Below are positions 6,825-43,027 of a stretch of DNA of 64,000 nucleotides, in pieces. Below the pieces are notes generated by a model, which was not told the DNA's origin, searched no databases, and worked only from the letters and a program-made list of their open reading frames with translations. Source of the DNA: Hysterangium stoloniferum (taxonomy: Eukaryota > Basidiomycota > Agaricomycetes > Hysterangiales > Hysterangiaceae); contig WHVD01000005.1 of assembly GCA_015178975.1 (NCBI GenBank), positions 1,550,001 through 1,614,000 of the forward strand, in the 5' to 3' direction. Both the position numbers and the translations under genes were made by a program. The stretch's first letter is position 1. Each line of letters begins with the position of its first letter.

Positions 6825-7529
6825 TGTCCCCTGATAGGACTCCAGGCACTAACTTATATGCACCCACACCCTATACGCACCCATTGTCAATTTACCGGAA
6901 TTACTGCCGGACTCCATATATCAGACTTGTCTACATTCAACTTCATTACGTTGTGTATCAGTCACTGGAATACCCCCCGGACTCCATCCCTGTCTATGTC
7001 TGACCTCATCCCACGCATCAGTCACTGGACCCCACTCGGAAAACCCGTCATCCCTCTAACAGAGCCCCATTCCTGTTTTAGTCAAATGACCTGTCACAAT
7101 TTGGACTCTGCTCCCGCTCCATTTCCCATTATGGTTTATGATCTGTCACAATTCAGACTCTGCTCTGTTCCGTCCCATTCCTAACACCAAATTTGGTGTT
7201 TCCTATTCCCGTTTTATGTTTTGTTAGTTTCGTTTCATTATTACTGGATTTGGTATGGCATTCATTCCATGGTCTATATAGTCTGGCAGATGTTGTACAT
7301 ACAATCCAGTCAGAAAATCAGCTTAGATTCCCCCCAGTAATCTAATACATTTTCCACTCTAAACTCCTACTTGAATCACACTGCTCATGCTAGTTGGAGC
7401 CCATGGGCTCTGGCACATCTATCTCTCTTATTTATCTCGACTCTTGTTAAGAACTAGAAACTGACTAATGTCGGTGGACCGACGGGGACTGATCAGAAGG
7501 ACTTGGCTTCAGCTTATGTGCTGCACCCT

Positions 7530-9254
7530 TGTCAGGAACCGGAAAATCCGCCGGCCTCTGGGCCTCTGGGCCCCCAGACCCCGTCCTACATGCTCCCAAC
7601 CCTCTATATTGTATAGTTACAACCGGAGTTCCCACGGGAGCCTGCACGTCAACTTGTTTATGCCTGACTCTCTGTACGCACCCCACCTGTCTGCACCTAA
7701 CCCTCTATGTCTCATACACCAGTCCTCGGACTCCTCCGGACTCCGGACTCCACCCTACATATACCCGACACTCTGTGTCTTATGTACCAGTCACCGGACT
7801 CTGACCGGACTCCTGGAATCCCTCTAACAGAGCATAGAACCCCGCTCCTGTTATCTGTCTCTGCGTCTCTGTGAAGAGTGGTGGGTTCTGACCACTCTAT
7901 ATACGAAGAATAGTGTTTATTCAACTACTATTAGAGAGTATTGACCGTCAGTACAATACTATAGACTACTAGACTGTTAGTACTAGTATAAGAACGCACT
8001 GCACGCCTCAAGAGCAACTGTATAGTTGCTCGCGACGGCTTAGAACAGTAAGATAACGAGTTGACCCTTTACGGTACAACTAGTAGCTAGAAATAAGAAA
8101 GATACTCAGCTAAAGACTGAGTGTCTAGGATAGAGTATTAGTGGCGTGAGTCAACTACGGTGTCGAAGAGCGCAAAGTCTTGAAAGCGGAACTCGACCTT
8201 AGCGGTTCGAGTTCAAAAGGCTATTAGTAGACTAGAGAATGCTACCTTTATGGTAGCTGAGATACTACCCTTGACACCTCTCGTTATTCGACGTCTGAGT
8301 CGTTACGAAGTGGTGTCTGCTGGGTAAAAAGTTGTCTGTCGTTTGGCACTGAGGGCGCCCATACGTATACACAAAGCTTCGAACTACAAATCAAGGTGTG
8401 CTCGAAATATAGAAAGAATATAAAGAAAGAAAATAAAAGGTAAATAATAAAGTACTATAATCCGGTTATTATTCCTTAGTCCAGGTATGCATATATGCAT
8501 ACCCTTTACAGTCTCACACACCAGTCATTGGAAAACCCACCGGACTCCACTGGACCTCCTGCACATCAAACCTGTCTACACCCGACACTATCTTGTGCAC
8601 CAAGTCACCGGACTCCGACCGGACTTCCGGAACCCCTCTAACTGAGCCCTGCTCCAGTTATGGTTAAATGACCTGTCATGATTCGTTCTCCGCTCCCGTT
8701 CTGTTCCGTCCCTAATTCCCAGTTTAGTATTTACTTGTTTCGTTTTATGTTTAATAGTTCTGCCTCTCATTAATACCGGATTTGGTATTATTACATTTCA
8801 CAGTCTATATAAGTCTGCTATATTCATGTACTTAGAATCCAGTTTCAATCTCGAACTAGTTTTCCCCCAAACAAGTTTGATCCTTGAACAAGTTTCCCTT
8901 CAATCCCAGTCTCTAGTCCTCTTGTCTGTCTGCATGCTCGATTCCCGGAACTCCCACAGGAACTCTGGAATCTATATCTCCTTGCATGCATTCTGTCAGT
9001 TCGAAATATGGATGCCCAAATGAGTGTACGAGGGCGCAGCCTATAAGCTGAAGCCAAGTCCATCTCAGTCGTACCCATTCTCTGGTAACTATTCTGATAC
9101 AACACTCCCTTGTACTACTAATATTCCCAGAAACTCCCCGGACCTATTACCCGGGGAGTCCATGGGACTATTACCCGGAAAGTGTGTGTTCGAAATATAG
9201 TTACCAGAGAAACCTCTGCGGGACTATCTGTGGAGCTTTGTTCAGAACTTAACA
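7530..9254 (-). repeat. LTR-G (diverged LTR-E relative) inside LTR-B (TSD ACCCT)
   Basis: Starts TGTCAGGAACCGG and ends CAGAACTTAACA, flanked on both sides by ACCCT (7525-7529 and 9255-9259). Much of its sequence resembles LTR-E in reverse, including the 'CTCTAACTGAGCCC' block and, near 9031-9060, the shared TTGGCTTCAGCTTAT module. Without its own nested insert it would be about 1.08 kb. It is younger than the LTR-B around it and older than the LTR-H within it. Confidence 0.85.
7870..8510 (+). repeat. Solo LTR-H, innermost layer (TSD GTCTC)
   Basis: A 641-bp block that begins TGTGAAGAGTGG and ends ACCCTTTACA, flanked by GTCTC at 7865-7869 and 8511-8515. It is unlike the surrounding LTR sequence. 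The first ~35 bases resemble the reverse of the end of the short repeat at 17116-17337. As the innermost layer it is the most recent insertion of this nest. Confidence 0.88.
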
Positions 9255-10113
9255 ACCCTCACAGTTGTCCGTCAAGTGTCCTTAAATTTCGGGTGGGCAA
9301 AGACTAGTCCCAGCGAATACCTCTCGGTGAGAACTACTGATCGGAATCGAGGGATGAGTCAAGTGTCGGGCCGAGGGGTTGGGGACCGAAGGGGGGTGAG
9401 CGCATGCAAAGGCGGAAGACAGAATTCTTAGTATGAGATTTCTAGAGGCGTAAGAGGGTATTCTGAGTCAATATTCTGATTGCCTAGTAACTACAACTAC
9501 AGCGGGTTCATATACAAGTATCAGGCATCTAGAAAATACTAACGGGGAGAAGGGCAAAATGGTATTAACAATAAGCTTGACTAGGAACGGGAAGTTTATG
9601 ATTAGTTCGGAGGCCGATGATAACCGAGAGTGAAATTACAGTAAAAGGAAATAGTTCGAGGGTTACAACTATATATAGACATATGTGAAACATAGGATAG
9701 AGCGGATCATCATAATAAAAGGGACGTATCAGAGTTTAACCAGATAGTTCGAGTGTATTTTGATGTGGGCGTAAACAGAGTTTGATCACTGCAAAGACAT
9801 ACGTCAGCATCGGGAGGCTGATGGTTTCCGAAGTGGTGACTTGAACTGTAACCTGAATTGTCGATGTGTGGCAATAACCTTGGGGACTGATAGGGTTGTG
9901 ACACGGTCATAACAACTCCCGACCTCTCGACCCATGACCTTCGACCTACGACCCCTCAACCCACGAACCCCACCCAGACTCCCCAGGATTCCTGTCCGCC
10001 TGTCTGAAATTGGACAACACGATCTCACAAGGGCACAGCCTATAAGCTGAAGCCAAGTCCTACTGGATATTCTGTGGGTTTCTCCAGAAACCCACCATGT
10101 ACGTACCTTAACA

Positions 10114-10421
10114 TATGGCAAGAATACAGAAGATGTGGTCTTTCAGCAAGACAATGACCCCAAACACAAGAGATCACAATGATAAAAATTGTACAATATT
10201 CTCTTGATTTATATTGAAATTATGCAATTTATTTTGTATTTTTATGCTCACCAATTGGTGTAATGACAATGGATTTGTGGTCATGGTATGGCCACCTCAG
10301 TTTGCTGATTTAATCCAATTGAACACCTCTGGTATCACCTCAAAAACAGGCTGGGAGAGTATGAAGTGGCACCCAAGAGTATTTATGAGTTGTGAGAGAG
10401 GGTTCAGACTGAATATAGAAG
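10114..10421 (+). pseudogene. Tc1-type transposase fragment with an LTR-A filler patch
   Basis: Two stretches (10114-10172 and about 10250-10421) match the C-terminal half of the Tc1 transposase gene at 44530-44790 at high identity, including the codons for QQDND and DLNPIEHLW. Between them the expected ~13 bases are replaced by about 75 bp that resemble LTR-A (compare 4437-4513). Both ends are cut by LTR-E copies in opposite orientations. A chance open frame of 163 codons (10214-10705) runs through this junction and should not be taken as a gene. Confidence 0.8.
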
Positions 10422-11417
10422 TGTTAAGGAGTATGTGTGGAGCTTATCAGAGGGTTTCCAGAGAAACCCACGGGAAAGCTGGTAGGACTTGGCTTCAGCT
10501 TATAGGCTGCACCCTCATGAGATTGCAACATCCAATTTCAAATGGGCGGATGGGAAACCTGGAGAGTCTGGGGATAGATGATAGGTTGGGAGTCGGGGAG
10601 GTCAACGGTGGGAAACCCATGGAGTCATTGATTGGTCAGGGAGGTCAAGTGATGATAAGTCGGAGGTCAAGCGATAGGAGAGTCGGAGCCTGTAGGCTCC
10701 AATGAGGTTGAAGCGGTATTCTCAAAGAGGAGTTTAGAGTGGAAGAGGAACTGTTACGACTGTGTCGCAACCCTATCAGTCCCCGAGGTTATCACCACAC
10801 ATCGACAATTCAGGTTACAGTTGAAGTCACCACTTCGGAAACCATCGGCCTCCCGACGCTGACATATGTCTTCGTGGTGATCAAACTCCGTTTATGCCCA
10901 TGTCAAAATACACTCAAACTATCTGGTTAAACTCTGATACGTCCCTTTTATTATGATGATCTTCTCTATCCTATGTTTCACATATGTCTATATATAGTTG
11001 TAACCATTGAACTATTTCCTTTTACCGTAATTCCGCTCTTGGTTATCATCGGCCTCTGAACTAATCATAAACTTCCCGTTCCTAGTCAAGCCTATTATTA
11101 ATACCATTTTCTGCCCTTCTCCCCGTTAGTATTTTCTAGACACCTGATACTTGTATATGAACCCACTGTAGTTGTAGTTACTAGGCAATCAGAATATCGA
11201 CTCAGAATACCCTCTTACACCTCTAGAAGTCTCATACTAAGAATTCCGTCTTCCACCTTTGCGTGCGCTCGCCCCCCTTCAGTCTCTGACCCCTCGGCCC
11301 GACACTCGACTCATCCCTCGATTCCGATCGGTAGTTCTCACCGAGAGGTATTCGCTGGGACTAGTCTTTGCCCGCCTGAAATTTAAGGACACTTGACAGA
11401 CAACTGTGAGGGTGCAG

Positions 11418-11553
11418 TGTTAGAAGTCCTAGTGTTGCACATTGTCGATGCTCGGCTAATTGTGTACTATACAGTAGCTTAGTCATCAGATGTATTTAGG
11501 TAGGGACTTTGTCATCCCCTCACCCACATGAAATCCTGTTGCATATCCTTACA
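11418..11553 (+). repeat. TRIM left terminal repeat
   Basis: 136 bp, begins TGTTAGAAGTCC and ends CATATCCTTACA. Almost the same as 13089-13224. Confidence 0.9.
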
Positions 11554-11615
11554 GGTTATGGGCCCCACCAGTTGCCTCTAATTTGCTTATCTACTGCTGC
11601 TATATCTAAACTACA

Positions 11616-12340
11616 TGTTACGACCGTGTTGCAACCCTATCGGTCCCAAGGTTATTGCCACTTATCAATGTTTTCAAGTTACCACTTCGGAAACCATTGG
11701 CCCCCGAAGCTGACGTATGTTTTTGCGATGATCAAACTCTGTTTACGCCCACGTCAAAATAACTTGTATTGTCTGGTTAAACTTTTGATACGTCCTTTTT
11801 ATTATGTTGATCTGTTCAATCCTATGTTTCACCTATGTCTATCTATATTTGTAGTCCTTGAACTATTTCCTTTTATCGTAATTCCGCTCTCGGTTATCAT
11901 CGGCCTCCGAACTAATCATAAACTTCCCGTTCCTAGTCAAGCTTATTGTTAATACCGTTTTCCGCCCTTCTCCCCATTAGTATTTTCTAGACGCCTGTTA
12001 CTGGTATATGAACCCACTGTAGTTGTAGTTACTAGGCAATCAGAATATCGACTCAGAATACCCTCATACGTTTGTAACAGTCTCATACTAAGAATCCCCC
12101 CATCCGCCTTCGTGTGCGCTCGCCCACTCCTGGCCCCGACCCCTTGGCCTGACACTCGACTTGTCCTTCGGTCCCGATTGGTATCTCGCCGAAAGGAACC
12201 CTTTAGGATTAGTCTTCGCCCGTCCGAAATCTAAGGACACCCCACGGATATTTGCGAGGGCGCAGCACATAAGCTGAAGCCAAGTCCTTCTGATCGGTCC
12301 CTGTCAGCCACCGACATTAGTCAGTTTTCAGTTCTTAACA
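11616..12340 (-). repeat. Solo LTR-B inside the TRIM (TSD CTACA)
   Basis: 725 bp, starts TGTTACGACCGTG and ends CAGTTCTTAACA, flanked by CTACA at 11611-11615 and 12341-12345. It is the innermost layer here: LTR-E > LTR-B > TRIM > LTR-B. The same family therefore inserted both before and after the TRIM arrived. Confidence 0.95.
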
Positions 12341-12400
12341 CTACACCCCTTTGTCATTGTCAACATTGCTGCTCCTATTTCGAAAATTTTTGTTGGCACA

Positions 12401-12547
12401 ATGAGAGGTGAACTTACAAAGTGTGGTATTGGAACTAAAGATACTGTGGAGTGGCAGTGGTATATGGAGCATGGTTTATTGGGAATTGACTCACAGATTG
12501 TTGTACCTGTTCCTGGGTTTGATGAAGACAACAACATTCGACTTTGA
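12401..12547 (+). CDS. Small open frame inside the TRIM (48 aa), unrecognised
   Basis: ATG at 12401, TGA at 12545-12547. The reading (start MRGELTKCGIGTKDTVEW, end DEDNNIRL) has balanced, protein-like composition unlike the low-complexity DNA after it. I do not recognise a family. TRIM and LARD elements are known to carry captured host-gene pieces, so an exon fragment is one possibility; a chance frame is the other. Confidence 0.25.
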   Translation: MRGELTKCGIGTKDTVEWQWYMEHGLLGIDSQIVVPVPGFDEDNNIRL

Positions 12548-13088
12548 GTTCTGCAAACTGACCTTTGCAAAGTAGGCCTGTTGTCCCACGAGTGGCCAGG
12601 CTGAAGTATTCTGTTATTTGTGGGGACTAGGAGTTGTGAGCAGGGCTCTGCAGTCTAGCATGTGAAATCTGGGAGGTCAGGAGGATGTGTACTAGGAATT
12701 GTGAGCCAAAGGTACCATTCGACGCTAACGTAGCGGAGGTGTGGTCTGGGAGGTTGGGGGAATGCATTCTAGGAGCAAGGGTCACTCCAAGGTTCGATTC
12801 AATGCCAAAAGTACCAGATGGATTGTGTCTAGTGGGCGCAGCAGGTGTGTCTTCAATTTTCGGATGGATTGCATCTAGTGGGTGCAGGCGCATTTTTCGA
12901 TTTCAGACAAGTTTTCAGACAGTTTTTGCATCAAGTCAGCACAGGTGTACATTTGAATTTCAGACAAATTTTTTGGACAGATTTTGCGCCAAGTGGGCGC
13001 ATTTTTTTTTTTGTGTTAAAAGGATGTTTAATTTTTGGTTGGTATGTATGGATCTACTATGGGCTTTCAACAACATGCAAAGTGGGTG

Positions 13089-13224
13089 TGTTAAAAGTCC
13101 TAGTGTTGCATGTTGTCGACGCTCAGCTAATTGTGTACTATACAGTAGCTTAGTCATCGGATGTATTTAGGTAGGGACTTTGTCATCCCCTCACCCACAT
13201 GAAACCCCGTTGCATATCCTTACA
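13089..13224 (+). repeat. TRIM right terminal repeat
   Basis: 136 bp, begins TGTTAAAAGTCC and ends CATATCCTTACA. It is followed at once by the TGCAG target duplication. A modest purine-rich stretch (GCAAAGTGGGTG) precedes it, where a polypurine tract would lie. Confidence 0.9.
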
Positions 13225-13852
13225 TGCAGCACATAAGCTGAAGCCAAGTCCTTCCAATCGGTCCCCGTCGGTCCACTGACATTAGTCAGTTTCTAGTTCT
13301 TAACAGGAACTAAGATTACTGGGGGAAATCTAAGCTGATTTTCTAACTGGATTGTATGTACAACAACAAGCAGACTATATAGACTGTGGAATGTATGCTA
13401 TACCTAATCCAGTAATAATGAAAGCCTAAATGGGTAATCATGAAATGAGAATAATAAACACCAAGTTTGGTGTTAGGAATGGGATGGAACGGGGTGGAGT
13501 CCAAATCATGACAGGTCATTAGACTGTAAATAGGAATGGGGCAGGAGCAGAGTCCAAAATGTGACAGGTCATTTGACCATAATGGGAATGGGGCTCAGTT
13601 AGAGGGCTGACAGGTTTTCCAAGCGGGGTCCAGTGACAGGTGCATGGAACGGGGACAGAGATAGACAGAACAGATGTGCGTTGGTCCTGGCGGGTATTCT
13701 AGTGACTGATACATGAGACAACAAGAGTTGGGCATGGACAGGATTGATGTTCGGGTCCCAGTGGGTATTCTGGTTAACTGAAAACAGTGTATCTAGAGCA
13801 TGGGTGCATATAGGTTGGTGCCTGGAGTCCAGCGGGAGTTCTGGTCGTAACA

Positions 13853-14063
13853 GTACCCTTCCTTTATGCTGAAGTCCCAAAGAGGCTCTAGAACTTGATA
13901 AAGTTTTTTCAGTTACATGTATGTGTCAAAAGTCATGTCAGTTACACGTATGTGTCAAAGAGTCACATGGTCTGGAAGGTAAGGTTCAGATGCATTGAGC
14001 CTATATAAAAATTTGAAAAAATAGAAATGTTTTCTTCTTTATTACCCCCATCGTCTTCTCAAC
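13853..14063. promoter_or_regulatory. Upstream DNA of the zinc-cluster-like locus
   Basis: A phrase like CAGTTACATGTATGTGTCAAA occurs twice (about 13908-13930 and 13939-13962), followed by a TATA-like CTATATAAAAA at about 14001-14011, some 50 bp before the ATG at 14064. This resembles a core promoter but nothing proves use. A short resemblance to the Tc1 transposase ('AGAACTTGATA') is seen at about 13889-13899. Confidence 0.35.
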
Positions 14064-15003
14064 ATGGGTCCAAAACCAATGCCTCACAGACCTGTGCCCA
14101 CTGCTGGGTCTTCCACCCACCCCCCATTTCAGGCTCTGCTCACCGCTGCCCAAATCTTGGTGCAGCAGGACAAGCAGTGTCAACAAAGGGAGGAAGTGGA
14201 AAGACTGGCCAAAGAGACTGAGGATGCCTTGGATAGGGATTACCAGGAGGCACTGGTTGCAGAAAAAGAGACTGAGGAGCAGAGGAAGAAAGATGAGGAG
14301 GTGGTGCAGGTTGCCATGGAACAAGCCAGGGCAGCCGCAGATAGGGCTGTGATTGCCATGGGGAAGGTAAGTCCCAATGAGTCTCAAATAGACTTAACTG
14401 ACTTTTGCTTTTAGCACAAGGCAGCAGAGGTCAAGTTGGAGTCCTAGGGGGAGCTGGAGAGCCCCCCAAAAGGTAAGCCTCGGTCCGTGGGATTTTCTGG
14501 GGACTGACCAGACAAGGAAAGTGGCTTCAGTCCACTTGCAGGTGAAAAACGACCCACGGTGTTCTGGTTGTAGTGACCAGAACACTGATTGTCATTGGAA
14601 GTCCGGCTGGGGACCGGGCTGTTGGCAATGTGTGCACCTCAAAGTGAGGTGCTCACTTGTTCATGAGCCCACAGGGTCCATGGCATGGGATGTGGGTAGT
14701 TCAGATGGGCTGGGGGGCTTGGAGGAGGTTCTGGGGTGGATAGCTGCAGGCATAGAGGCCCAGAATGAGCTGCTTGTGAAGAGCAACTGGGTGCAAGTAG
14801 TCATAGCCAAAAACCTCCATGCACTCCACGGGGAGTTCTGGCCCTTTCTGGCAGAGTATGGTGGGTACATGTATGTTGAACTGCAGGACAGGAGTTCTGA
14901 GGAGCCCAGCTCGGATGAGCACAGGGTTCCCAAGGAGATAGCAGAGCTCCCAAAGGAGATTGCTGAGGTTGGGCAGAAGCATAGCCCCATAAATGTAGAC
15001 TGA
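14064..15003 (+). pseudogene. Zinc-cluster-like basidiomycete locus, probably decayed
   Basis: Exon 1 (14064-14366) starts MGPKPMPHRPVP and codes for a Gln/Glu/Lys-rich helix likely to form a coiled coil. A 48-nt GT-AG intron (14367-14414) leads to a short exon that ends at TAG 14445-14447. Downstream an open frame (14521-15003, 160 aa) carries cysteines at 14, 17, 24, 34, 37 and 44, spacing C-X2-C-X6-C-X9-C-X2-C-X6-C, which is the Zn(II)2Cys6 pattern of fungal transcription factors. Basic residues between the cysteines are fewer than in Gal4-type factors. The two parts do not join in one phase with any splice pair I tried, so the locus is either a pseudogene or has an intron I cannot place. 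An acidic C-terminus follows. It sits among LTRs and may itself be a dispersed family. Confidence 0.5.
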
Positions 15004-15099
15004 AGATAAACTAATAAAGTTTTAATAGTTTTTTTTTTAAAAAGTAAAAGTAAAATGTGAAAAGCATATATATTCTCTTCTTATTATTGATAGAGTCTT

Positions 15100-16282
15100 G
15101 TTGAACCTAAAATGTCCCAAGAGTGGATGGTCTGTTTGTACTGGAGGATCCTGAGGCAGAGGCCGTCAGAGACTGGTACATAGATATGATCGTCAAGTCT
15201 AATGAAACGATGCTGATCAAGAGACCACTGGGGTTGACTGGGGTCCTGTAAGTGCCGTGTCGGGAACTTATTCCGGAACTATTGGAAAGTCACCGGGAAG
15301 TCGGGAACTATCGGATAGGGTCAGGACGTCAGCTTCAGCTTATGTGCTGTGCCTCTACGCAAACGCTCAAAGTCCTTAATTTCAGAAGTGAGACTTATGA
15401 TGGAAGATATGGATATTCAGAGTTCCGAAGAGTTCTGAATATCGAGCGTACAGAAAGACGGAAGAAGGAATAAGAAACTAAGTCGATATCAGATCTAAGG
15501 TAAAGTACAAATTCGTGGAAACTAATATAAGTCTTCTCGTTATTGTACTACAAACTGAGACCATAATAAGACGGAAACGGAAGTATTCTTAAAACAGAAA
15601 TACAATAAGACATATCAGGGAGACAATATTCCAAAATGGGAATATAATAAACAAACGAGTGAATACTTGTTAACGGACAAATTACCAAATGCAGAACAAG
15701 GGAAGAATGCGGAAGATACGGTAACTATGATGTTCCGTAGTTGGAGATCAGAAGTCAGATATTGAAACATCTGGGAATGGGTCGTAACAGGTCCATGGGA
15801 TTGTCAAGGTGTGCTTTAGTTATCGGGTCTAGTGGAATTGCTGATAGAATATCTTGATGTAACTTCTCAATATCCATAATGATAATTCCACAGACAATGG
15901 GATGAATGAGGAAAGTTGCATGGACTGATGCGGTAAGCTGCTGATTCGTGAAAATGGGTTTCAAGTTGTGTTGGTTTACCATGGCATAGTCGTTGCTCCC
16001 CTCTTTAGGGTAGATGTCCCATCATCTAGTTAAAGTGTCGGGTTTGCCACCAAGATGGCTGGGTCGAAAGCAGATAATCATGTTACAGGCTGACAGATAT
16101 TCAGACTAGTGGCCTGCCGGCGGGTCAAAGGTTTCATGGTAGAAAAGTATTCCAGGTTCTTGTGATCTGTTACAACATCAATTGGAATTCCTGAGCCTTC
16201 CAAATAGTGTTGCCATGCTTTGAAAGCTGAAAAAATTGCTAGGAGTTCCTTATCGTGAACATCATAATTGAGGAGGATATCT
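15100..16282 (-). mobile_element. Ty3/gypsy pol fragment split by a solo LTR
   Basis: On the minus strand, about 16080-16282 reads as gypsy RNase H (TDHKNLEYF motif), 15790-16080 as the RNase H-integrase linker, and about 15100-15246 as the start of the integrase zinc region. LTR-C (15247-15789) lies within, with a target duplication. It is a short relic of a different gypsy lineage from the element at 1-6400 and is broken in several places. Confidence 0.8.
15247..15789 (+). repeat. Solo LTR-C inside gypsy pol (TSD GGTCC)
   Basis: 543 bp, starts TGTAAGTGCCGTG and ends GGGTCGTAACA, flanked by GGTCC at 15242-15246 and 15790-15794. It carries the shared GCTTCAGCTTATGTGCTG module about 85 bp from its start. 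Confidence 0.93.
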
Positions 16283-17115
16283 GAAAACTATTAAGTATAC
16301 CAAATTCTAATATACTCTAAAGGTCATTTAAACATCTGAGATGTGATTCAAACATAATTTGGTTTTTAAAACTTTCAAAAAGTTTTAAACTCTCTTGTAC
16401 ATTACAAACTAAAGAATCTTTCTGGACACAAGTAGACAATAAAAAAAATTAGTAGTTTGAAACACTGATGCTTTTAAAAAATAGATACTTTTAGATAGTC
16501 CATTCCATGCATATGTATATCATTGGCACCTCTAAATACATGTATTACTTCAGAATGGATCTGTCAATCTAAACAGATTTCTACTTGATTCAACATACCT
16601 AGAATATATAGGTGGTTTCACTTAATAAAGAAGGCCATAGGATGAAAAATTTCCAATGATATCTCACATATTTTACTAGGAAATAACTACAGTTTAGTTT
16701 TTAAAAAACAAATTAACAACAAAAGTATTAGCAAGTATTTACATAACTTGGAAAACCATATACAATAGGTTCTATTAATTAACTCTGAATTATTTAGGAT
16801 GTAATATGAAGAATTGTTTCTTATGATTGGTGGTTAACAATATAATACTCTCAGAGGATATGTGTGAGGAGTATGCTTTTACCACAGTATTCATTGTGGT
16901 AAAACACTCCTTTTATTTTATTTATATTCTACATATTCTATTCATAATTTTCTATCTTTCATATTCTTCGAATATTGCATATTTCATTAGTTCGAAGCAT
17001 TGTGTATACTTGTGGGTGCACTCAGCACCAATTAGAACTCAGACACACTTTAACCCAAGAACCACCACTCGTAAGACACAAACTAGGTCTACTACGAGCG
17101 GTGATCAGGGTAACG
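16283..17115. other. AT-rich intergenic DNA with one perfect hairpin
   Basis: No credible gene. The 101-codon open frame at 16827-17132 is AT-driven and hydrophobic and is not called. The only structure is TTTTACCACA (16877-16886), eight bases, then TGTGGTAAAA (16895-16904). Confidence 0.6.
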
Positions 17116-17337
17116 TGTCAGCTACTACATAAGTAGCAATATCTGAACTACTAAACACTTCTGGCCTCGAACTGTAATAGTCGAGGCCTCCACTCGAACC
17201 ATCGCACTCGTTGACTCCTTCGTCATCTCGTGCTCTTTCTCTCACTTTCTCTTATATTGCACTGAATAGGTCAATATCCTTCCTTTCTACTCATTTCTTC
17301 GTATATAGAACGGTCAGAACTTCCGCCACTCTTCACA
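17116..17337 (-). repeat. Short LTR-like repeat (LTR-H relative)
   Basis: On the minus strand it begins TGTGAAGAGTGG, like LTR-H at 7870, and its other edge is TGTCAGC on the plus strand. About 222 bp. Flanks TAACG and ATATG do not match, so it may be one LTR of a lost element or a truncated copy. Confidence 0.45.
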
Positions 17338-19577: not shown

Positions 19578-19872
19578 TCGTCGAAGATCAGGTGCAATGG
19601 AAAGTCGGGGTGGAAAGAGTGTGAACGCCGTGCTACACTGCCGATACATAAATCGACACCATCTGCCGTGGGAGTTTTGAGACGAGAATCGCACCTCATG
19701 TCTCCTCGACCCTTCGTATCAGAAACTTCTGCTAGTCTCATCTTATCTGTGTTTCAAGAATCATAGGTGCCATGTCAGATACTCTACCTCTTCTCTGAGC
19801 TCATGACTCGCTGCCGTTGTTTTCATTATGGCAGCCGCCACTCACTGTGGTATAGCCCCATGTACCATTCCC

Positions 19873-32614: not shown

Positions 32615-33193
32615 TCAATAGGACGGCTCGAGATCAATGTGAGAGGTGCCCAGACTTTGTATATAGCATTCGACCCGGGATTTCGTAGCGTTGGGATCTG
32701 AGAGTCTAAGTACCAGCAGAGCAGGATTATTCAGACTCGAGGTCGGAGATGATTCAACCTGGGTGAACATGGCGAGGTACTTGCAATCGTGACTCAGGTG
32801 AGTTGAGAGTGTGGAAACAGATGGACAAATCAATTTATTTCCGGATATGTCTAAACAGGGAGATGGAGGCCAGGACTCGAAGGGTGACTTGTCAGTGCGG
32901 GCAGTACTAGTACAATAGATAGTTGATTCTGAGTCAAATCGAGCTGGAGCCAAGCTAAAGTGCAACTTCAATTTCTATGTATACCGTTTACTTTTAGAAA
33001 TAGCGCATCAATTACTTTGCATGACCTGGAGCGCGTCAGAGGAAGGTAATGATTGAGGAATTCTTGAGGGAACATGAATAGGGTCACGACATGTGTCAGA
33101 ATCGTGAGTACAGTGCGTGCACACTAAACTAGACAGAGCTGTCTCATTGTCAATAGTGCTTTCATGATCACACCAATAAATGACAGAATTCAA
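32615..33193 (-). CDS. Hypothetical two-exon gene, unrecognised
   Basis: Exon 1 33026-33193 (starts MNSVIYWCDHEST), a 51-nt intron 32975-33025 with GTCATG donor and CATAG acceptor, exon 2 32615-32974; the junction keeps phase. The product would be about 175 residues, rich in Ser, Thr and Cys (CTHCTHDSDTC in exon 1), with no known domain. The 5' end could lie further upstream. It is tail-to-head with the PL14 gene, on the same strand. The intron fit is the only support, so it may be chance. Confidence 0.3.
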
Positions 33194-33199
33194 ATTTAT

Positions 33200-35190
33200 T
33201 CCTAAGTGAACATATCTACATCGAATTTCGAAGTTACATCTATTTTGTGGGAAAGTCCCATGAGGAAAGCCAACCCTTATGGTACAGTAAAACGAAAAAC
33301 ATCCTGTGCAAACGCATCCGAAGGAATTCTACCATCGAGATCGAAGAAGATAGCCCAAGACTCTCCCCAGTTGTCTTGAGCAGCGAAGTAACCCGACCAA
33401 CGGTGAGGGGGAGTCAATGAGGCGGCCAGCCGCCACGTTGAAATGGTGTGGTAAAATATTGACTATATAACCGTGATTGCAAGGGGGCGTGCATGGTGAG
33501 TGAGAAACAATCATCTTGTCTATGGTTTGGGGTGAGGTAAGAAGTGTCATGTGTTTCGCTTTGTGACGATCGTATAAGAGTTGAAAATAAAGGAGAGGGA
33601 TAACGCCTTTGAGAACGGTGCGTTTCTATGTCAGACATCTGCGGTCAGGATTGCTTAGAGGTACTGAGTGATGGCGATGGAGAAGTCCTTCAAGAACATA
33701 TCTTGGTTCTTTGGGGAGGCCCAGTCCGAATGATGACCTGTATGTATCACACATGCCAGTCAGCGCTACATAGTTCTAACAAGAAGGAGACGATATAAGA
33801 AAACACACCACCAAAGAATGACTGGAAAATATAGCCATTAATACGGCCCTTGTCACTATCCCTCAAAGCAAGCCCTTTTAGGTTAAACATCGTTTGGCCA
33901 TTGACAATGACTTCCAATTCTCCATTTTGAACCCCGGCATCATTTAACTTGACACGCTGGCTGAGGACAGTCCATTTGCCAGGCGTGAATGACCATGAAC
34001 CGCGCCCAACGCTCGCGCCAGCATCGTCACTGCAGACACTAAGAGGTTTGACATTGCAAAGCTGCTGATTGCCCTTGAATTGGGATCCCATGCTCGGTTG
34101 GGGGAGATAAGTGTAGAGTTCGCCTTGGCCGTTTTCGCGCCACATGTAGCGTACTGAGAAACAGGTTTTATCGCGTCGGCCACCGGAGCAGCCAGTGTCT
34201 GTTGAAGGGTTATCGCCTCCATCTGTAGGGAAAAAAAAGAATGAGTAATCACGGGAGTGAATAATAGCGAAAGTCACAAACAGAGACCGGGGAGCTTTCC
34301 ACCCTTGTTGAACTCGAAGCCTTGGGAAAACAAAACGCTATAGGAAGAAGTGACCTCTTTTGCATTGCTCAAGTCTATGCCTGTGTTGGAATAGAAATTG
34401 ACACCACCGTCGGGTCCTTGGTAGTCATACGAACCTGGTAGACGGGGAAAAAAGGTCAGAGATCACAACGGTGTTATAATGACAGATCTTGTCTACCCTT
34501 AGCAAAGTTAACCTTGACAGCAGTTGAGCCGTCTGGGGCCGTACCGAGCTCAGGTGCGGCACCAGGGGCGATATGTAAGGGGTTCAATGCACTGATAGTA
34601 AGGGGGACGGCGCCTTTAACGGTACCAACAGCAGTCGACCACATGTTGTGTCCCTCGCCGTCAGGGAAGAGAAAATTGGATGGGCTCAATGAGCCGGAAG
34701 CTGGGAGTGCGGAGATGTAGGCAGGGAGAACTGCGAGTAGGAAAAGACGATTGAGCGACATCGCAAGCACTGTGGAATAGGTAGGCCTATTTACAAGATG
34801 TCGAAAAAGGAACTTAAGAATGCATTATATAGTAAAGGAGTGCGGGTAAAAAGGAAAGGAGAGATGTTAAACGGGACGAGGCAAGGAACGTCATCCTTCC
34901 TTCAAACTTTTTGCATCTTCGCTAAGGTCACATTCAAATACACTAGAACGTGGTGTGATCCGACTACTAAAGCGTAGGAAACGTTAATTACTGACAATCG
35001 ATTGCCTAAAAAGGAATAGCAAGTCCAATTCAAAGTGAAATAGCTTATTACGTCACGGTTCCATTAATTTTTTCGGATCCTTAGCGAGCGAACATTGCAG
35101 CCGGATGAATCAGAGAAGCCAGAAGTGCCTTTGCGGAATGGCGGATTATACGGGCCGTGGAAAGCCGCTTCAGCTTGTAAAATTCTGAAC
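33200..35190. repeat. Segmental duplication, copy 1 (PL14 gene and flanks)
   Basis: Matches 54850-57170 in the same orientation over the whole gene and both flanks. Downstream both share 'CGAAGTAACCCG' and 'GTGATGGCGATGGAGAAGTC'; upstream both share 'GGAGTGCGGG' and, near the far end, 'CAGAGAAGC' followed by 'GCGGAATGGCGGA' or 'GGAACGGCGGA'. Introns align in position and nearly in length. Confidence 0.85.
33655..34761 (-). CDS. Polysaccharide lyase family 14, secreted (copy 1)
   Basis: Exons 34497-34761, 34288-34434, 33809-34222 and 33655-33737; GT-AG introns of 62, 65 and 71 nt; 909 nt, 302 residues. It starts MSLNRLFLLAVLPAYISA, a typical signal peptide, so the product is secreted. The PL14 fold region includes GGDNPSTDTGCSGGRRD, a conserved RYMWRENGQGELYTYLP strand, VGRGSWSFTPGKWT, VKLNDAGVQNGELEV and the end motif QSFFGG...DWASPKNQD. 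PL14 enzymes cut uronic-acid polymers (glucuronan, alginate) by beta-elimination; many basidiomycetes carry several such secreted genes. The real substrate cannot be read from sequence. The ATG at 34761 was chosen because the upstream extension has no ATG. Paralogue of 55325-56590. Confidence 0.92.
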
Positions 35191-35357
35191 AAGACACAAA
35201 AAAGGAAATTCTGGACAAATACGCAATACTACACAGGTCTTTCAACGAAAAAGGCTCAACCGTAAGTTTTTGTGAGGAGTGACAATGCCCAAATCGGTTC
35301 GTAGGTGCCGGCTTGGAACAACAGTCAGGGCCTTAAAGAACCCATTCAGACGTGCTC
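34762..35357. promoter_or_regulatory. Upstream region of PL14 copy 1
   Basis: Includes a TATA-like 'GCATTATATAGTAA' read on the plus strand at about 34823-34836, about 65 bp before the ATG (minus-strand TACTATATAATGC). This part is shared with copy 2 only in broken blocks. No gene. Confidence 0.4.
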
Positions 35358-36787
35358 TCATTCGTCATTCGCAATATTATGATCTATGCGCCGCATGGGA
35401 GTTAACAGCGTTTTGTGACTTAGTGTGAATAGATATAAATGAGTGTGAAAGCGTTGATTAATCAACATATGATCATTTTTGGGACCATCACCGACTCTAA
35501 TCGGGAGGTGGATTTCGGCCGGCATACCGTTGCTTAATTTGCTGGAAGTAATCTGATTTTCCAGGCTAGCCGGTGTTTTGGGCAGGTGGGAATGACTTGG
35601 GCGAGGGCTATTTCCTTTAGAATTTGATTTTTTGCGGGTGCTTCGCGGCTTCATAATTTCATAATACTCACAGTACTTTGCGAAAACCTTGTGCAAACGG
35701 GGGTTTTTTTTTTTTTGCTAAATAAACACCCCCATTCGCACATCAGGCAAGTCGAAAAGGGGTATGTACAGTCCTGGAGTATCTATGCCGCTCAGACCTC
35801 ATGTACTTTAGGTCCACTCTCAGAGTGTACCAGGCCATGTAGACCAAATATCATTTCTCAGTGTATGATGGTATGCATGATTTATCCTAGTATAATATTA
35901 TAAATCATATAATAATAAATCAATCAATTTGAAATCGTTAATCAGAGCAAATATATATTTTTTATCAAAAGGAACATTATTGTGATTATCAGCAATAAAA
36001 CAAATTGATTTAAAATGCAGGGAATGATGTGAAGAAAAGAAAAAATGGAAGAGCTTGAAGCCATGTCCATAAAAAAAAGTAAGAGGGGAACTTGAAGAAA
36101 AAAATAATAACTCCAAAAGAGGCTCTGGGAGTGGGGGCAGAGGTAACAATGGATGTGGGCTTTTATACATAAACTTTGCTGGTGTTTGGTGCATGCAGAC
36201 CTGTGGATGCTTATATTGAGATTGTGGTGAAGGGAGAGTGAGAGACAGGTTCTGGCAGATTCCAGAGAGTTGGAGATGACATATTGAGAGTTGGAGATGG
36301 CATATTGAGAGTTGGAGATGGCATATTAGTATGACATTATCTGATTCAAATGATGGAGTGAGGTTAGAATTTGCCTCTGCAGCAGGAGCTGATCCATACA
36401 TGTGTTCTGTTCTGCCACTTATGTCTGTGAAGGATGTCTAAAAAGTAGTAAGAAAATTTAGTTTAGTTTGAAGAAATATATAAGAGGATGTTTGCACCAT
36501 ACTTGTACTAGTGCCATCATCTCTCTGGACACACCATCTCTGCTAGCTCTGCTGCAACCAACATCTCATACTCAGCTGGTTCCATTCCTTCCCCAAAGAT
36601 GATATTGTCCTCAAAGCTATGGTTATTCTGCAAGGATAAATTCAAGTTGTTGCTGTGGATGAGTTCAGTAAAGGGTCAAATAGTGCAGGAATAATGACAC
36701 TTTACCTTCCCACAATCCATAGATTCTCTTGCAGTGTTAAGCAGTGGTTGTAGTAAATTTTTTTAAACTTCTGAAAGGATTTCATGC
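35358..36787. other. Start of the second transposon island; weak open frames only
   Basis: Minus-strand open frames at 35358-35696 (112 aa, basic) and 35898-36401 (167 aa) have no recognisable domain. The second owes part of its length to the 21-bp repeat at 36265-36327 and is otherwise Phe/Leu/Pro/Ser-rich, so neither is called as a gene. A T13 run flanked by complementary G5 and C5 tracts lies at 35700-35740. 36402-36787 shows nothing. Confidence 0.45.
36265..36327. repeat. Three 21-bp tandem units
   Basis: GAGAGTTGGAGATGGCATATT three times, the first unit with GACATATT. Being 21 bp, it repeats seven residues (ICHLQLS) in the minus frame. Units are nearly identical, so the expansion is recent or conserved. 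Confidence 0.95.
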
Positions 36788-37525
36788 TGTTAAGAACTGA
36801 AAACTGACTGATGTCGGTTGGCCGACAGGGACCAATCAGAAGGACTTGGCTTCAGCTTATGTGCTGCACCCTTGCAAATGTCCGTTGAGTGTCCTTAAAT
36901 TTCGGGCGGGTGAAGACTAATCCTAACAAGTTCCTTTCGGCAAGTTACCGATCGGGACCAAAGGTTAAGTCGAGTGTTGGGTCAAGGGTCGGTGACCGAG
37001 AGTGGACGAGCGCACGCGAAGGCGGATGAGGGGATTCTTAGTACAAGACTGCTAGAGGTGTAAGAGGGTATTCTGAGTCGATATTCTGATTGCCTAATAA
37101 CTACAACTACAGCGGGTTCATATACAAGTATCAGGCGTCTAGAAAATACTAACTAGGAGAAGAGCGGAACAAGGTATTGACAATAAGCTTGACTAGGAAT
37201 GGGAGGTTTATGATTAGTTTGGAGGCCGAAGAGATAACCGAGAGCGGAATTACGGGAAAAGGAAATAGTTCAAGGGTTACAAGTATATATAGACATATGT
37301 GAAACATAGGATAGAACAGATCATGATAATAAAAGGGACGTATCAAAAGTTTAACCAGATACTACGAGTATATTTTGACATGGGCGTAAACGGAGTTTGA
37401 TCATTGCGAAAGCATACATCAGCATCGGGGGCAATGGTTTCCGATGTGGTGACTTGAGCGATAACTTGAATCGTCAATAGGTGGCGCTAACCTCGGGGCT
37501 AAATGGCTGCAACACGGTCGTAACA
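36788..37525 (+). repeat. Solo LTR-B, uninterrupted reference copy (TSD CATGC)
   Basis: 738 bp, starts TGTTAAGAACTG and ends CACGGTCGTAACA, flanked by CATGC at 36783-36787 and 37526-37530. The shared module GGACTTGGCTTCAGCTTATG lies at about +55 to +74 and is followed by TGCTGCACCCTTG. It has no nested insert, so it is the best guide to the family. Confidence 0.96.
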
Positions 37526-37620
37526 CATGCATTAACAATAGCTTTGGTCATAAATGTGGCGATTGAAAGCAAAAGAAGTGTCATCTATAGCATGACCTCA
37601 CATGAATGACTCCACATGAG

Positions 37621-38280
37621 TGTTAAGTGCCATGTTGGAACTTATTCCAGAACTATTGGAAAGTCACTGGAAACTCAGAAACTATTGAATAGAGTCAGGA
37701 TGTTGGCTTCAGCTTATGTGCTGCACCTCTACGCAAATGCTCAGAAGTCCTTAATTTCAAAGATGGGACTTACACTGGAAGTTATGGATATTCAGAGTTC
37801 CAAATATCGAGTGTACAGAAAGACGGAAGAGGGAATAAGAAACTAAGTTGAGATTAAAACTAAGGAGTAAGTACATGACTATGGAAGACTATATAGAAGT
37901 TCCAACAATTGTACTACAAATCTAGAAGTATAATAAGACAGATTAGGATGAAGATTCTGAAATGGGAATACAACAAGAACAATAAACAAGCAAATGAATA
38001 ACTGTTAACCTGTCAGTTACCAAATATGGGACAAGGATGAGGTTTGGAAATATGGAAACTATAAATGTTCCATAGTCAGAAGTCAGGTCAGATATTGAGT
38101 TGAAAAGTCAGATTGGAGACTCGGGGTGAAAAGTCAGATCAGAGATGGGAGTCTGACCAGAAGTCTGACCAGGAGTCTGACTGGAAGTCTGACCGGGAGT
38201 CTGGGCCAGGAAATGACCACAGAACATGTGTAGAAGTCAACTACTGAAGGGCAGAGTCCGATGAGTTCTGGGTCATAACA
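37621..38280 (+). repeat. Solo LTR-C variant, no clear TSD
   Basis: Starts TGTTAAGTGCCATG and ends TTCTGGGTCATAACA. Longer than the 543-bp copy because of a tandem array at about 38146-38205 built from AGTCTGACC with A/G-rich spacers (about five units of 14-15 bp). Flanks ATGAG and GGAGG do not match, so the right edge or the flank may have changed. Confidence 0.8.
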
Positions 38281-38855
38281 GGAGGTGTCTAAATGAGGGC
38301 AGAATACCAGAATGGGATTTGTCTTGAAGGGATGAGGGTCAGGTTCCAGTGGATTCTGGATCTTGATACTGGTCTGGAAGATGGTTAGAACTTGATATGA
38401 TTTCCAGGAAATACTCCGAGGAGTCTCCAGGAATGGAACTTCACAATGAGACACCTCATAATCTAGGGCATGCTTAATCTATCATTTTGTTAGCATGTGA
38501 GGAAAATGGAGATAGTTAGTGACTTACTGCAATACAGCAGAAGGCAATGGTTTTGAGGGACATGGGCTGAAAACTGTCAGAATGCTGCACACCATGTGAA
38601 TTTCTATTTTTGAATGTGATGTGCATCATAGCCTTTTTGATGCAAAGATGGTGCCATTCACCACTGCACATTGGTTTCTATAGTGTTGTCAAGGAATAAA
38701 TAGAGTTAAGAATGGTCAGAGAAAAGAAATAACTTACACCTTGATAATTTCTGCCATCCTTCATTTGTAAACCTTACCTTTTCATAAATAAAAATGGCAT
38801 TGGAGGACAATGTTTGAATAGCATTAAGATGGACATTGAGCTCTTTATGCTCATG

Positions 38856-39164
38856 TGTTGGAAACCACTAAGCCAACATTGGCTTAGTGGTTTCCAACAT
38901 AATGTAAACTCTGACCTGAAGGTAGTAACTCCCCTATGACCTGTTTAAGGCCAGTAACCAATGTTGTGTGTGGACCAACTAGATATTAAGTAAATTTTTA
39001 TCCCTCTATATGCCAAATACAAGTTATTTTTGCCACTTATTTTGGGCTTGAAACTATTGGTATGGGCAGGGATTGAAGTCACAACTAAGTGGGGTCTTTG
39101 GAGTATTGGAGTTTACTTTATGTTGGAAACCACTAAGCCAATGTTGGGTTAGTGATTTCCAACA
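38856..39164. repeat. Pair of 44-bp palindromes about 220 bp apart
   Basis: 38856-38899 is a perfect inverted repeat: TGTTGGAAACCACTAAGCCA and one more A, two bases (CA), then the exact complement. 39121-39164 is the same palindrome with two changes in its right arm. The 221 bp between them are unique in the window. This looks like the two ends of a small non-coding element, or one folded end repeated, but no target duplication is evident. 38281-38855 and 39165-39496 hold nothing I can support. Confidence 0.8.
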
Positions 39165-39496
39165 TCATGTAGATTGAATGTTCTGATGATGTCATCACTG
39201 ATTCCTTTGCAAGGGTATTGTGGTAACTATGAGCATTTTTACAAAGCTACAAAGGACTGTGAGGTAAAAAAAAAGGGGATGAGAATCTTACATAGCTTGT
39301 AACATTGCTGTTCAAGGGAATCATGACTTGGTGACTAATGGATGTTGGCAGAAGATAGTTGCTTATCAGGGGATGGTGTGGCAATCTGGGAGTTGTAGTT
39401 TTTGTTCAAGAAAGGATGCTGTGAAAGGGGGCCTAGCAGGGTGGTATTGGTTGAGAAGAGGGGATATCAATTCTGGAATGGATAACTGGTGGACTG

Positions 39497-40320
39497 TGTT
39501 AAGAGTTGTGCACAGAGCTTATTGGAGGGTTTCTGGAGAAACCCACAGGAAAGCTGGTAGGACTTGGCTTCAGCTTATAGGCTGTGCCCTCATGAGATCA
39601 TCTTGTTCAATTTCAAATGGGCAGATGGGAATCCCGGGGAGTCTGGGAGGGGTTCATGGGTTGAGAGGTTGAGGAGTCAAGATAAATAGGTCGGGGGTCG
39701 AGTGATAGATGGGTCAGAGCCTGTGGGCTCTGACGAGGTCAAGTGGTGTGTTTCAAAGAGGAGATTAGAGCAGAAAATGTACTTGAGATTACTGGGGGGA
39801 ATCTAAGCTGATTTTATGACTGGATTGTATGTACAACATCTGCCAGACTATATAGACTGTGGAATGAATAACATACCAAATCCAGTAATAATGAAAACTA
39901 AACTAGCAAACATGAAACGAGATAAATAAACACCAAACTTGGTGTTAGGAATGGAACAGAACAGAGCAGAGTCTGAATCATGACAGGTCATAAAACCATA
40001 ATGGGAATGGGGTGGGAGTGGAGTCTGAATCATGACAGGTCATTTGACCATAACGGGAATGGGGCTCAGTTAGAGAGCTGTCGGGTTTTCTGAGCAGGGT
40101 CCAGTGACTGGTGTGTGGGACAGGGTTGGAGATAGACAGGAGTGGAGTCCGGCAAGTATTCCAGTGACTGATACAGTACATGAAGTAATGAAGGTCGAGT
40201 GTGGACAGGTCTGACATACGGAGTCTGGCAGGATTTCCGGTAAACTGATAATTGGTGCGTGTAGGGTGTGGGTGCATATAAGTTAGTGCCCAGAGTCTGG
40301 CGGGATTTCCAGTCGTAACA
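39497..40320 (+). repeat. Solo LTR-E (TSD GACTG)
   Basis: 824 bp, starts TGTTAAGAGTTGTG and ends CCAGTCGTAACA, flanked by GACTG at 39492-39496 and 40321-40325. Contains the shared module at about +65. Confidence 0.95.
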
Positions 40321-41349
40321 GACTGCAGATCAGGATTGTCAATATAACTATCAATCTTGGGTGGTTTTGATGTCCAGCTCAGAATTATTAAAGGAAAATG
40401 GCTTGTTCTGAGATTGGGAGGCTTCATCTGTTTTTTGTATGTCATTTTTGTATTTGGTCTTGTACTGCAACAAGTTGGAAGAAGTAAATTGTTTGGCTGG
40501 GAATTGGAAAAACTAGTTTTGGTAGGAAAGAGTTGTTTACTGGGAGCCTGTTTTTCACCATTCAATTTTACTGCAACAGATGAGGATAGATGGGAGATGT
40601 ATTAGAAAAAAGCCCACTGAATGGTGTGGACTTCAAGTACTCAAGGTAGCTTTTGATGAGGAACTTAAATTGGCAGAAGTCCAAGGCCTCAGGCTGGTGG
40701 AAGGTATAAAAGTCTCCTGGGAGTTTCTCTAACAGGTTATTGGGATTGAGTCTCCCTCATTGGTTAAATGGGTCTGTGTTAGGATACATGTCATTCAGCC
40801 CCCTGCAACCTCATTTTACCCTCCTCACCCTCTGGCATCCTGCTCTTGGTATCTCTGACCACAGTACCACTACCTGCAGCACCCTGACAGTCATTTCACT
40901 GGAAATTATATCCCCTTTGGCCATCCCATCCCAATGCTCTCCCATCACCCATTCTATGTGTAAATGTTATTTGCCACCTTATACCCTTTAAAATACTTTT
41001 GTTACATCATATTTAGTTCCAGTTTGATCCCTACTCCTTCTCATGCTTCCTTTGACCTGTCACCACAGTTCACTTCCTGATCATGGGCAAAGATGTGGCA
41101 TGGATGTGTATATTAGTTCTGCAGATTTGTACTTACATTATAACTCAGATCTGTGTCAGGGGTCCCTCTGTCACAGACCCCAGGGAGCACTATTTCCTCA
41201 TTGTATTGAAGTCCCTGAGTCCACAGTCCAACCCCATGCCTTTTGTCACTTTCCCTCCCCTTGTGGATATCAACTACTCTGGCTAATACATACCTCTGAG
41301 AAGTAGGTGACTAACTTCAGGAGCTTGTAGCATTAGTGTTCCATTGTGG
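40321..41349. other. Unassigned DNA between LTRs
   Basis: The best open frame is 41083-41286 (67 aa, MGKDVAWMCILVLQ..., partly hydrophobic), with no known domain. Composition is pyrimidine-rich at 40740-41050. It may be internal DNA of an old element or a host remnant. Confidence 0.4.
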
Positions 41350-41574
41350 GAAAGGCCCCTGTTCTGCATTAAGTAGAGTTAACTATTTTTAGACTACTGG
41401 GTGCCTATGGGTCACACCTCGCAGGAGGAATTCCTTAGACTGTTTCTCTTTGGATTCCCTCCTGCTAGATGAGTTAGGTAGTTGTTTGTACTGTATATAT
41501 ATATCAGTTCTAATATAACTTCAGATTCCCTCCTGCTAGCCTTGTGTGAGCAGGTAGTAGGGGTTGCCCTTACA
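41350..41574 (+). repeat. LTR-D-like fragment, plus orientation
   Basis: Matches the reverse of about 6534-6760, including GGATTCCTTAGACT, two TCCTGCTAG phrases and a right edge ...CCCTTACA at 41574. It abuts the LTR-C arm at about 41577. Left edge not found. Confidence 0.5.
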
Positions 41575-41750
41575 ATCTGAGATCAACTTAGTTAGCTTAT
41601 TCCTCTTCTCTTTCTGTTTGCTCAATATTTGGAACTTTTCAGCATAAGTCAACCTTCTGAAATCGTTAAGAACAGAAAACTGACTGATGTCAGAAGACCG
41701 ATGGGGACTGAACAGAAGGACTTGGCTTCAGCTTATGTGCTGTGCCCTCG

Positions 41751-43027
41751 TGTTAAGTGCCATGTTGGAACTTATTCTGGAACTATCAGAAAGTCACTGG
41801 GAATTCGGGAACTATTGGATAGGGTCAGGACGTCAGCTTCAGCTTATATGCTGCACCTCTACGCAAATGCTCAGAAGTCCTTAATTTCAAAAGCGAGACT
41901 TACACTGGAAGATACAGATATTCAGAGTTCTGAAGAGTTCTGAATATTGAGCATTGTTAAGAACTGAAAACTGACTAATGTCGGTGGCCGACAGGGACTG
42001 ATCGGAAGGACTTGGCTTCAGCTTATGTGCTGTGCCCTCGCAAATATCCGTAGGGTGTCCTTAAATTTCGGGCGGGCGAAGACTAATCCTAATGAGTACC
42101 TTTCGGCGTGATACCGATCGGAATCGAAGGACAAGTCGAGCGTCAGGCCAAGGGGTCGGGGCCGGGAGTGGGTGAGCGCACACGAAGGCGGATGGGGGGA
42201 TTCTTAGTATGAGACTGATACAGGCGTATGAGGGTATTCTGAGTCGATATTCTGATTGCCTAGTGACTACAACTACAGCGGGTTCATATACAAGTAACAG
42301 GCATCTGGAAAATACTAATGGGGAGAAGGGCGGAACACGGTATTAACAATAAGCTTGACTAGGAACGGGAAGTTTATGATTAGTTCGGAGGCCGATGATA
42401 ACCGAGAGCGGGATTACGATAAAAGGAAATGGTTCAAGGACTACAAATATAGATAGACATATGCGAAACATAAGATTGAACGGATCAACATAATAAAGGG
42501 GACGTATCAAAGTTTGACCAGACAATACGAGTTATTTTGACGTGGGTGTAAACGGAGTTTGATCTTCGCGAAAACATTCGTCAGCTTCGGGGCCGATGGT
42601 TTCCAAGATGGTGACTTGAAACATTGACAAGTGGTGATAACCTCGGGACTGATAGGGTTGCGACACAGTCGTAACAAGCATACAGAAAGATGGAAGAGGG
42701 AAGAAGAAACTAAGTTGATATCAGATCTAAAGTAAAGTACAAATTTGTGGAAACTAATATAAGTCTTCTCGTTATTGTACTACAAACTAAGACCACAATA
42801 AGACTGAAACAGAAGTATTCTGAAATGGGAATACAATAAGATGAATTGGGGAGACAATATTCCAAAATGGGAATATAATAAACAAACAAGTGAATACTTG
42901 TCAACAGACAAATTACCAAATGTGGAACAAGGGAAGAATATGGAAGATACGGTAACTATGATGGTCTATAGTCAGAAGTCGGAAGTTGGAAGTTGGATAT
43001 TGAAACATCTGGGAATGGGTCATAACA
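41751..43027 (+). repeat. Solo LTR-C inside LTR-B (TSD CCTCG)
   Basis: Starts TGTTAAGTGCCATG and ends ATGGGTCATAACA, flanked by CCTCG at 41746-41750 and 43028-43032. About 550 bp without the LTR-B nested inside it. Confidence 0.95.
41955..42676 (+). repeat. Solo LTR-B, innermost layer (TSD AGCAT)
   Basis: 722 bp, starts TGTTAAGAACTG and ends CACAGTCGTAACA, flanked by AGCAT at 41950-41954 and 42677-42681. The nest reads LTR-C > LTR-B > LTR-C > LTR-B. Confidence 0.96.

Follow-up and report, generated by a model that had tools for sequence, protein, structure and literature searches.

Why should three different retroelements have inserted within the same 11 bases of one long terminal repeat (LTR)? 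The question is raised by a stretch of 64,000 nucleotides from the basidiomycete Hysterangium stoloniferum (assembly GCA_015178975.1, contig WHVD01000005.1, positions 1,550,001 to 1,614,000), here called the window, in which copies of one LTR family, LTR-B, are interrupted by other elements close to the edge of a conserved module. The assembly surveyed comprises 111 Mb in 554 contigs. All base numbers refer to an intact LTR-B copy, the guide, such that positions 36788-37525 of the window read on the plus strand are guide bases 1-738. The hot bases are real and are common to several LTR families. The recurrent insertion is best explained, with a probability of roughly 0.6, by a shared integrase target preference acting at an abundant conserved motif, and not by a dedicated landing platform.

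Three nested insertions in LTR-B

The three inserted elements are a terminal-repeat retrotransposon in miniature (TRIM), an LTR-G element and an LTR-C, each in a different LTR-B copy (Table 1). Both sides of all three insertions were read directly, and each has a clean 5-bp duplication, the last duplicated bases being guide 81, 85 and 87 respectively, as the first-pass annotation of this DNA had described. Its statement that all retroelement insertions into LTR-B in the window fall at bases 77-87 is also borne out, since comparison of LTR-B with the whole window revealed no further one. It had in addition placed these bases directly after a module common to several LTR families. This is correct: the hot bases form the downstream edge of the module, and are used by different elements. 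The TRIM carries two short direct terminal repeats (approximately 137 bp, 94% alike, at 11417-11553 and 13088-13224) as well as the 5-bp duplication, and is assigned to that class on these grounds.

Insertion peaks at the conserved module

The module is both abundant and strongly conserved. The word at guide 55-81 is present in 7575 genome copies at up to 3 mismatches, and a 17-bp core of the module in 3950 exact copies. Identity to the guide at bases 54-79 is about 0.99 in 82 complete LTR-B copies (from the sample described in the next section), as against 0.67-0.96 in most 20-bp bins.

Insertions were located genome-wide by searching for an element end of the form TGTTAAG or TGTTACG that starts no more than 30 bases after the core. 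The GTG-type core gave 21 rows, of which two were dropped as native sequence mutated into the query and two more as duplicates (from the pairs L099/L100 and L110/L111); reading of the flanks (20 fetched, and one in the window) thus left 17 separate events. The last duplicated base is 81 in eight of these, 85 in three, and 84, 87, 88, 95, 98 and 106 in one each. The AGG-type core gave 12 rows: four at base 81 (P 4e-4 for the peak in this module variant), two at 87, two at 104, and one each at 79, 80, 83 and 86. A shorter common anchor, which is the only one to cover bases 74-78, gave 54 rows, and 47 were kept after removal of five that were native LTR mutated into the query and two that were duplicated loci. 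The three sets overlap.

In the shorter-anchor set, 18 of the 47 events end at base 81, seven at 85, five at 87, four at 76 and one at 75. Assuming a uniform distribution over 31 positions, the probability of 18 of 47 junctions within 31 bp falling at base 81 is 3e-15, and that of 36 of 47 falling at bases 77-87 is 1e-8. When no rows are dropped, base 81 still accounts for 19 of 54. Of the kept events, 26 had their flanks fetched and the other 21 were placed on the matched string alone, with base numbers that assume an indel-free host. A broader search for any TGT start gave 181 matches, 100 of them listed, and was taken as indicative.

Upstream of the core there were 24 rows, of which 19 were kept and five dropped as native sequence mutated into the query. 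A second peak is seen here, with the duplication starting at base 58 in five of the 19. There are therefore base-specific peaks on either side of the conserved motif, at duplication start 58 and duplication end 81, and the upstream and downstream sets together contain just four retained events that end in 63-75.

The elements involved are varied, host and insert being labelled according to our reading of the LTR ends. Where flanks were in view, 10 of 12 base-81 hosts were from families other than LTR-B (LTR-C-like, LTR-D-type or further), and inserts near the module included LTR-B, LTR-D-type and others, in both orientations. Both 5-bp duplications were seen in five of the 12 flank-read base-81 events (L099/L100, L104, L112, L114 and L153), while in the rest the fetched sequence did not show the second junction.

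Two other ideas were considered and rejected. The first was that the module region is broadly hot: 36 events over 62 bp in 3950 copies, compared to three over 31 bp in the 1412 copies of an LTR-B body control, is not a significant difference (P 0.14); a second control, whose copies were uncounted, gave one event. The second was that CTGCA is a generally preferred duplication, and here 50 distinct LTR-B-type sites gave varied 5-mers.

Insertions along the whole of LTR-B

The distribution along the complete LTR was examined in an anchored sample, consisting of the first 100 listed of 1412 exact matches to guide bases 285-304; these copies are confined to three contigs and so are not random. Both ends are reached by 82 of the copies and not by the other 18. 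Eight retroelement-like junctions were found, at approximately 40, 58, 254, 331, 359, 399, 491 and 557, each with just one side in view and that at 491 being the least certain. None of the eight is at bases 77-87. In one copy (L074) there is a break near 82 at which no element end can be recognised, and the remaining partial copies are end variants, deletions, and DNA-transposon-like or unassigned breaks. Because the junctions are dispersed and absent from 77-87, the hot bases account for a minor part of LTR-B insertions overall. An even spread along LTR-B, which the first-pass annotation had named as the contrary outcome, is thus largely what is seen at the scale of the whole LTR, and yet there is a sharp local peak at the module edge. 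The idea of a special stretch of LTR-B that takes all insertions finds no support, either in this result or in the non-LTR-B hosts of most base-81 events.

One anchored copy, L064 (C1:1576044-1576964), contains two different inserted elements, at about 254 and 331. The second of these carries a long tandem run of a ATTCGACCTCATTAC-like unit.

Target-sequence preference

Insertion sites of these elements away from the module have in common a weak pattern, symmetric and with the 5-bp duplication at its centre (A at -7, C at 0, G at +4 and T at +11). The preference matrix was built symmetric, and symmetry is to that extent assumed, although the unsymmetrised columns look symmetric. A matrix from 61 non-module sites gave held-out sites a cross-validated mean percentile of 0.881 among about 80 neighbouring positions, with 36 of 61 in the top tenth. 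Displaced controls gave 0.409-0.557 at five fixed shifts, and a mean of 0.475 over 20 runs with random offsets. Large shifts were used here, because earlier controls with small shifts (0.68-0.75) still had part of the pattern inside them.

The same matrix ranks the window sites high locally. Scored in their own empty host copies, they have percentiles of 0.90 (LTR-G), 1.00 (TRIM) and 1.00 (LTR-C), and with the duplication columns omitted these become 0.96, 0.97 and 0.96. Ranked across the whole host LTR with an 80-site matrix, the TRIM site is 12 of 716 and the LTR-C site is 3 of 540 (in a partial host). In LTR-C and LTR-D hosts, the 80-site matrix places base 81 first of 31 positions in four of five and third in the fifth, with base 85 within the top five, and in the LTR-B guide it gives the second peak (duplication start 58) a rank of 30 of 773. 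Sites near the module for which both flanks were read have a mean percentile of 0.87, with eight of 17 rows in the top tenth (locus L128 contributing two rows). LTR-D sites, which hardly feature in the training, score 0.21 on the left half of this matrix, against a background of -1.21 with a standard deviation of 2.1 (38 flanks, four of them nearly identical). Seven of the eight anchored-sample sites could be scored, and those at 254 and 553 are at 6.5 and 7.6 times the uniform predicted density.

The first-pass annotation had suggested targeted integration, through a DNA structure, a bound factor or an open site. Clustering at the level of single bases is indeed beyond chance genome-wide. Much of it can arise without a structure or a bound factor, since a preference learned elsewhere ranks the sites high locally.

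The four nearly identical LTR-D flanks (L204, L213, L221 and L223) end in AATAC, which suggests an LTR-D copy inside another amplified repeat.

Structure and transcribed strand of LTR-B

A pair of LTR-B copies on contig C1 encloses gag, protease, reverse transcriptase, RNase H and integrase, coded opposite to the guide strand; the interior of one LTR-B pair was read in two pieces. Pfam matches in the open frames of one internal region (L194, L195) are Retrotrans_gag, Ty3_capsid, RVP_2, RVT_1, RT_RNaseH, Integrase_H2C2 and rve, and the integrase core is followed by an SH3_Tf2-1 domain (PF24626, E 1.2e-19). Judged by its coding domains and the SH3 domain, LTR-B is a Tf1/Tf2-like element, probably of the Tf1/sushi type of Ty3 elements. 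A chromodomain was not among the Pfam matches of the one copy read, whose open frame stops after the integrase. Same-orientation LTR-B pairs at L039-L040 (C1:24766-32532) and L044-L045 are about 7 kb apart and look like full-length elements.

A putative primer-binding site starts 2 bases past the LTR 3' end. Its longest complement match in the LTR-B guide is the 11-base word AATCAGAATAT, located about 304 bases from the LTR 3' end (303-306 in seven of nine copies). We read this arrangement as putative Tf1-type self-priming. The mRNA 5' end of LTR-B would then be near guide 304, and the module would form part of the transcribed leader, ahead of the primer-binding site, instead of marking the start. 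Both this and the strand of gag-pol speak against the transcription start at the hot bases that had been offered earlier as a possible open site. The possibility that the module acts as a TATA box for the transcribed strand (TATAAG in the LTR-D type) was rejected for a similar reason, as the self-priming match puts the likely start about 225 bases away. Guide 311-343 is mostly highly conserved in the anchored copies (the 20-base anchor itself being invariant by sampling), and has ATATAC about 30 bases from the inferred mRNA start.

A proposed shared preference at an abundant motif

The mechanism that we propose is as follows. LTR retrotransposon families would share one integrase target preference, or would borrow one another's integrase. 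The preference would be a property of the integrase, and the TRIM and LTR-G inserts would be served by that enzyme or one like it. The edge of the conserved module, approximately guide 74-88, would offer good matches to this preference in many host copies. Because the module is present in thousands of copies, the same bases would be landed on repeatedly, 81 first, then 85 and 87, and 62 across the core. The module is probably kept for the LTRs' own life cycle, and would be struck through a coincidence of sequence.

Several results weigh against this interpretation. The LTR-G site ranks only 72 of 715 across its whole host LTR (80-site matrix). Collapsing near-identical flanks lowers the module-near mean to 0.82, with three of 11 in the top tenth, though because of the common module sequence the collapse also removes most base-81 loci. 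The other five scored anchored sites (36, 54, 327, 355 and 395) are at 0.05-0.79 times uniform. In the LTR-B guide, base 81 itself comes no higher than 368 of 773 (80-site matrix), and in two LTR-B hosts it comes 14 and 7 of 31. Over the 82 full LTR-B copies, its predicted share is the same as uniform (0.14%), and that of bases 77-87 is 2.0% as against 1.6%. Besides the TRIM there are two LTR-B-hosted junctions at base 81 (L116 and L118), with the second duplication not seen in the fetched stretch, and the second duplication is likewise unverified for several base-81 events. The count of self-priming copies is partly a matter of selection: the 11-base word is carried by all nine copies with a primer-binding site, but seven of these entered the sample through an anchor that includes the word (L006 and L143 being the exceptions), so that the weight of self-priming rests on the 11-base match. 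Since base 81 is average in typical LTR-B copies, the LTR-B-hosted events there remain partly unexplained by preference, and the three-of-three cluster in one window is a coincidence that preference explains only in part.

A weak integrase preference combined with a very abundant conserved motif would make nested insertions recur at one base, and in a single window this resembles dedicated targeting. With its thousands of copies, its predicted hot bases and a Tf1-like element, the module is a test case for integrase preference versus tethering by a factor.

Other explanations

The main rival is that a sequence-specific host protein on the module tethers intasomes in the manner of Sap1, with insertions at fixed bases flanking the bound core (58-62 and 77-87). 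This we consider unlikely, because the non-module matrix already gives these positions high ranks in the window copies and in hosts of the LTR-C and LTR-D types, and the overall rate of insertion close to the module does not clearly exceed that in the LTR-B body control. It would nevertheless suit the near identity of 26 bp of module common to several LTR families, the peaks on both sides of a core with few events inside it, and the failure of sequence preference to predict base 81 in average LTR-B copies. LTR-B is moreover Tf1/Tf2-like, and published work places clusters of Tf1 insertions at -9 and +19 relative to the Sap1 motif (PMC5741268) and a Sap1 site in Tf1/2 LTRs (PMC5371812).

A variant is that the module is a docking site, kept by several LTR families, at which a host protein on the core steers the intasomes of many families to fixed flanking bases. 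The elements would then use each other's LTRs as safe landing sites, and a Sap1-like system would exist in another lineage. We place this behind the simple tether, as improbable.

Chance or copying would mean that a few true events were multiplied by segmental duplication or amplified composites, and noticed post hoc. Base-81 loci with read flanks differ in host, insert, orientation and duplication, and the peak recurs in the separate AGG-type variant, which makes this explanation less probable again, even given the two duplicate pairs that had to be removed, the lack of any excess at 77-87 in the anchored sample, and the 21 shorter-anchor events whose flanks were not fetched. Least probable, to the point of being hardly credible, is that open chromatin or a transcription start at the hot bases draws integration: the module is conserved and, read on the transcribed strand, includes ATAAG or TATAAG, but gag-pol is on the strand opposite to the guide, the inferred mRNA 5' end is far from guide 81, and open chromatin should produce a broad zone of insertion and not a single-base peak.

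Other features of the window

A further interruption of the third LTR-B host, near guide 554, is an insert at 43509-45104 with inverted ends of about 209 bp. Its open frame at 44340-44819 is by appearance a Tc1-like transposase, and the insert looks like a DNA transposon. A separate Ty3-like gag-pol was recognised by open-frame reading at 336-4109 on the minus strand, with no LTR-B match within or directly beside it.

Table 1. LTR-B copies, the conserved module and nested elements, in positions of the window
Feature	Position	Strand	Remarks
Intact LTR-B (guide)	36788..37525	- (transcribed strand, inferred)	Strand from gag-pol frames and self-priming match
Conserved module, guide 54-81	36841..36868		Common to LTR-B, LTR-C, LTR-D-type and other LTRs
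Hot bases, guide 77-87, in intact guide copy	36864..36874		Peaks at last duplicated base 81, 85, 87
LTR-B host interrupted by LTR-G element	7445..9914	-	
Nested LTR-G element (TGTCAGG...TTAACA)	7530..9254		Duplication ACCCT at 7525-7529 and 9255-9259, last base guide 85
LTR-B host interrupted by TRIM	10752..13305	+	Guide orientation on - strand
Nested TRIM	11418..13224		Duplication TGCAG at 11413-11417 and 13225-13229 (CTGCA on guide strand, last base 81)
Solo LTR-B inside TRIM	11616-12340		
LTR-B host interrupted by LTR-C and, further in, by DNA-transposon-like insert	41664..45300	-	
Nested LTR-C	41751..43027		Duplication CCTCG at 41746-41750 and 43028-43032, last base guide 87
LTR-B inside nested LTR-C	41955-42676		Duplication AGCAT

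Comparison with known systems

A study of 1993 reportedly described LTRs as recurrent targets, as here; the recurrence there is said to have been regional, and not tied to one base of a common motif. Retroviral integrases also belong to the class of enzymes with palindromic target preferences. Our literature search found no paper that we recognised as describing the present motif.

The idea that sites borne by LTRs seed nested insertions is already in print (PMC5371812). The system concerned, Tf1/Tf2 with Sap1 in Schizosaccharomyces pombe, is similar to the present one: LTR-B has RVT_1, RNase H, rve, SH3_Tf2-1 and a putative 11-base self-priming match, and there are base-specific insertion peaks beside a conserved LTR motif. 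It differs in its bound factor, fork barrier and promoter targeting, in that the peaks here largely follow the elements' own sequence preference, and in that the sampled LTR-B insertions are mostly away from the module.

The closer parallel for the preference itself is with the palindromic preferences of LTR retrotransposon integrases (Jedlicka et al. 2019, PMC6911290). In that study, LTRs are among the least-hit parts of elements in 12 plant genomes, unlike here. The weak symmetric preference centred on a 5-bp duplication is alike in both, whereas in H. stoloniferum one base recurs as the insertion site across many copies of a conserved motif.

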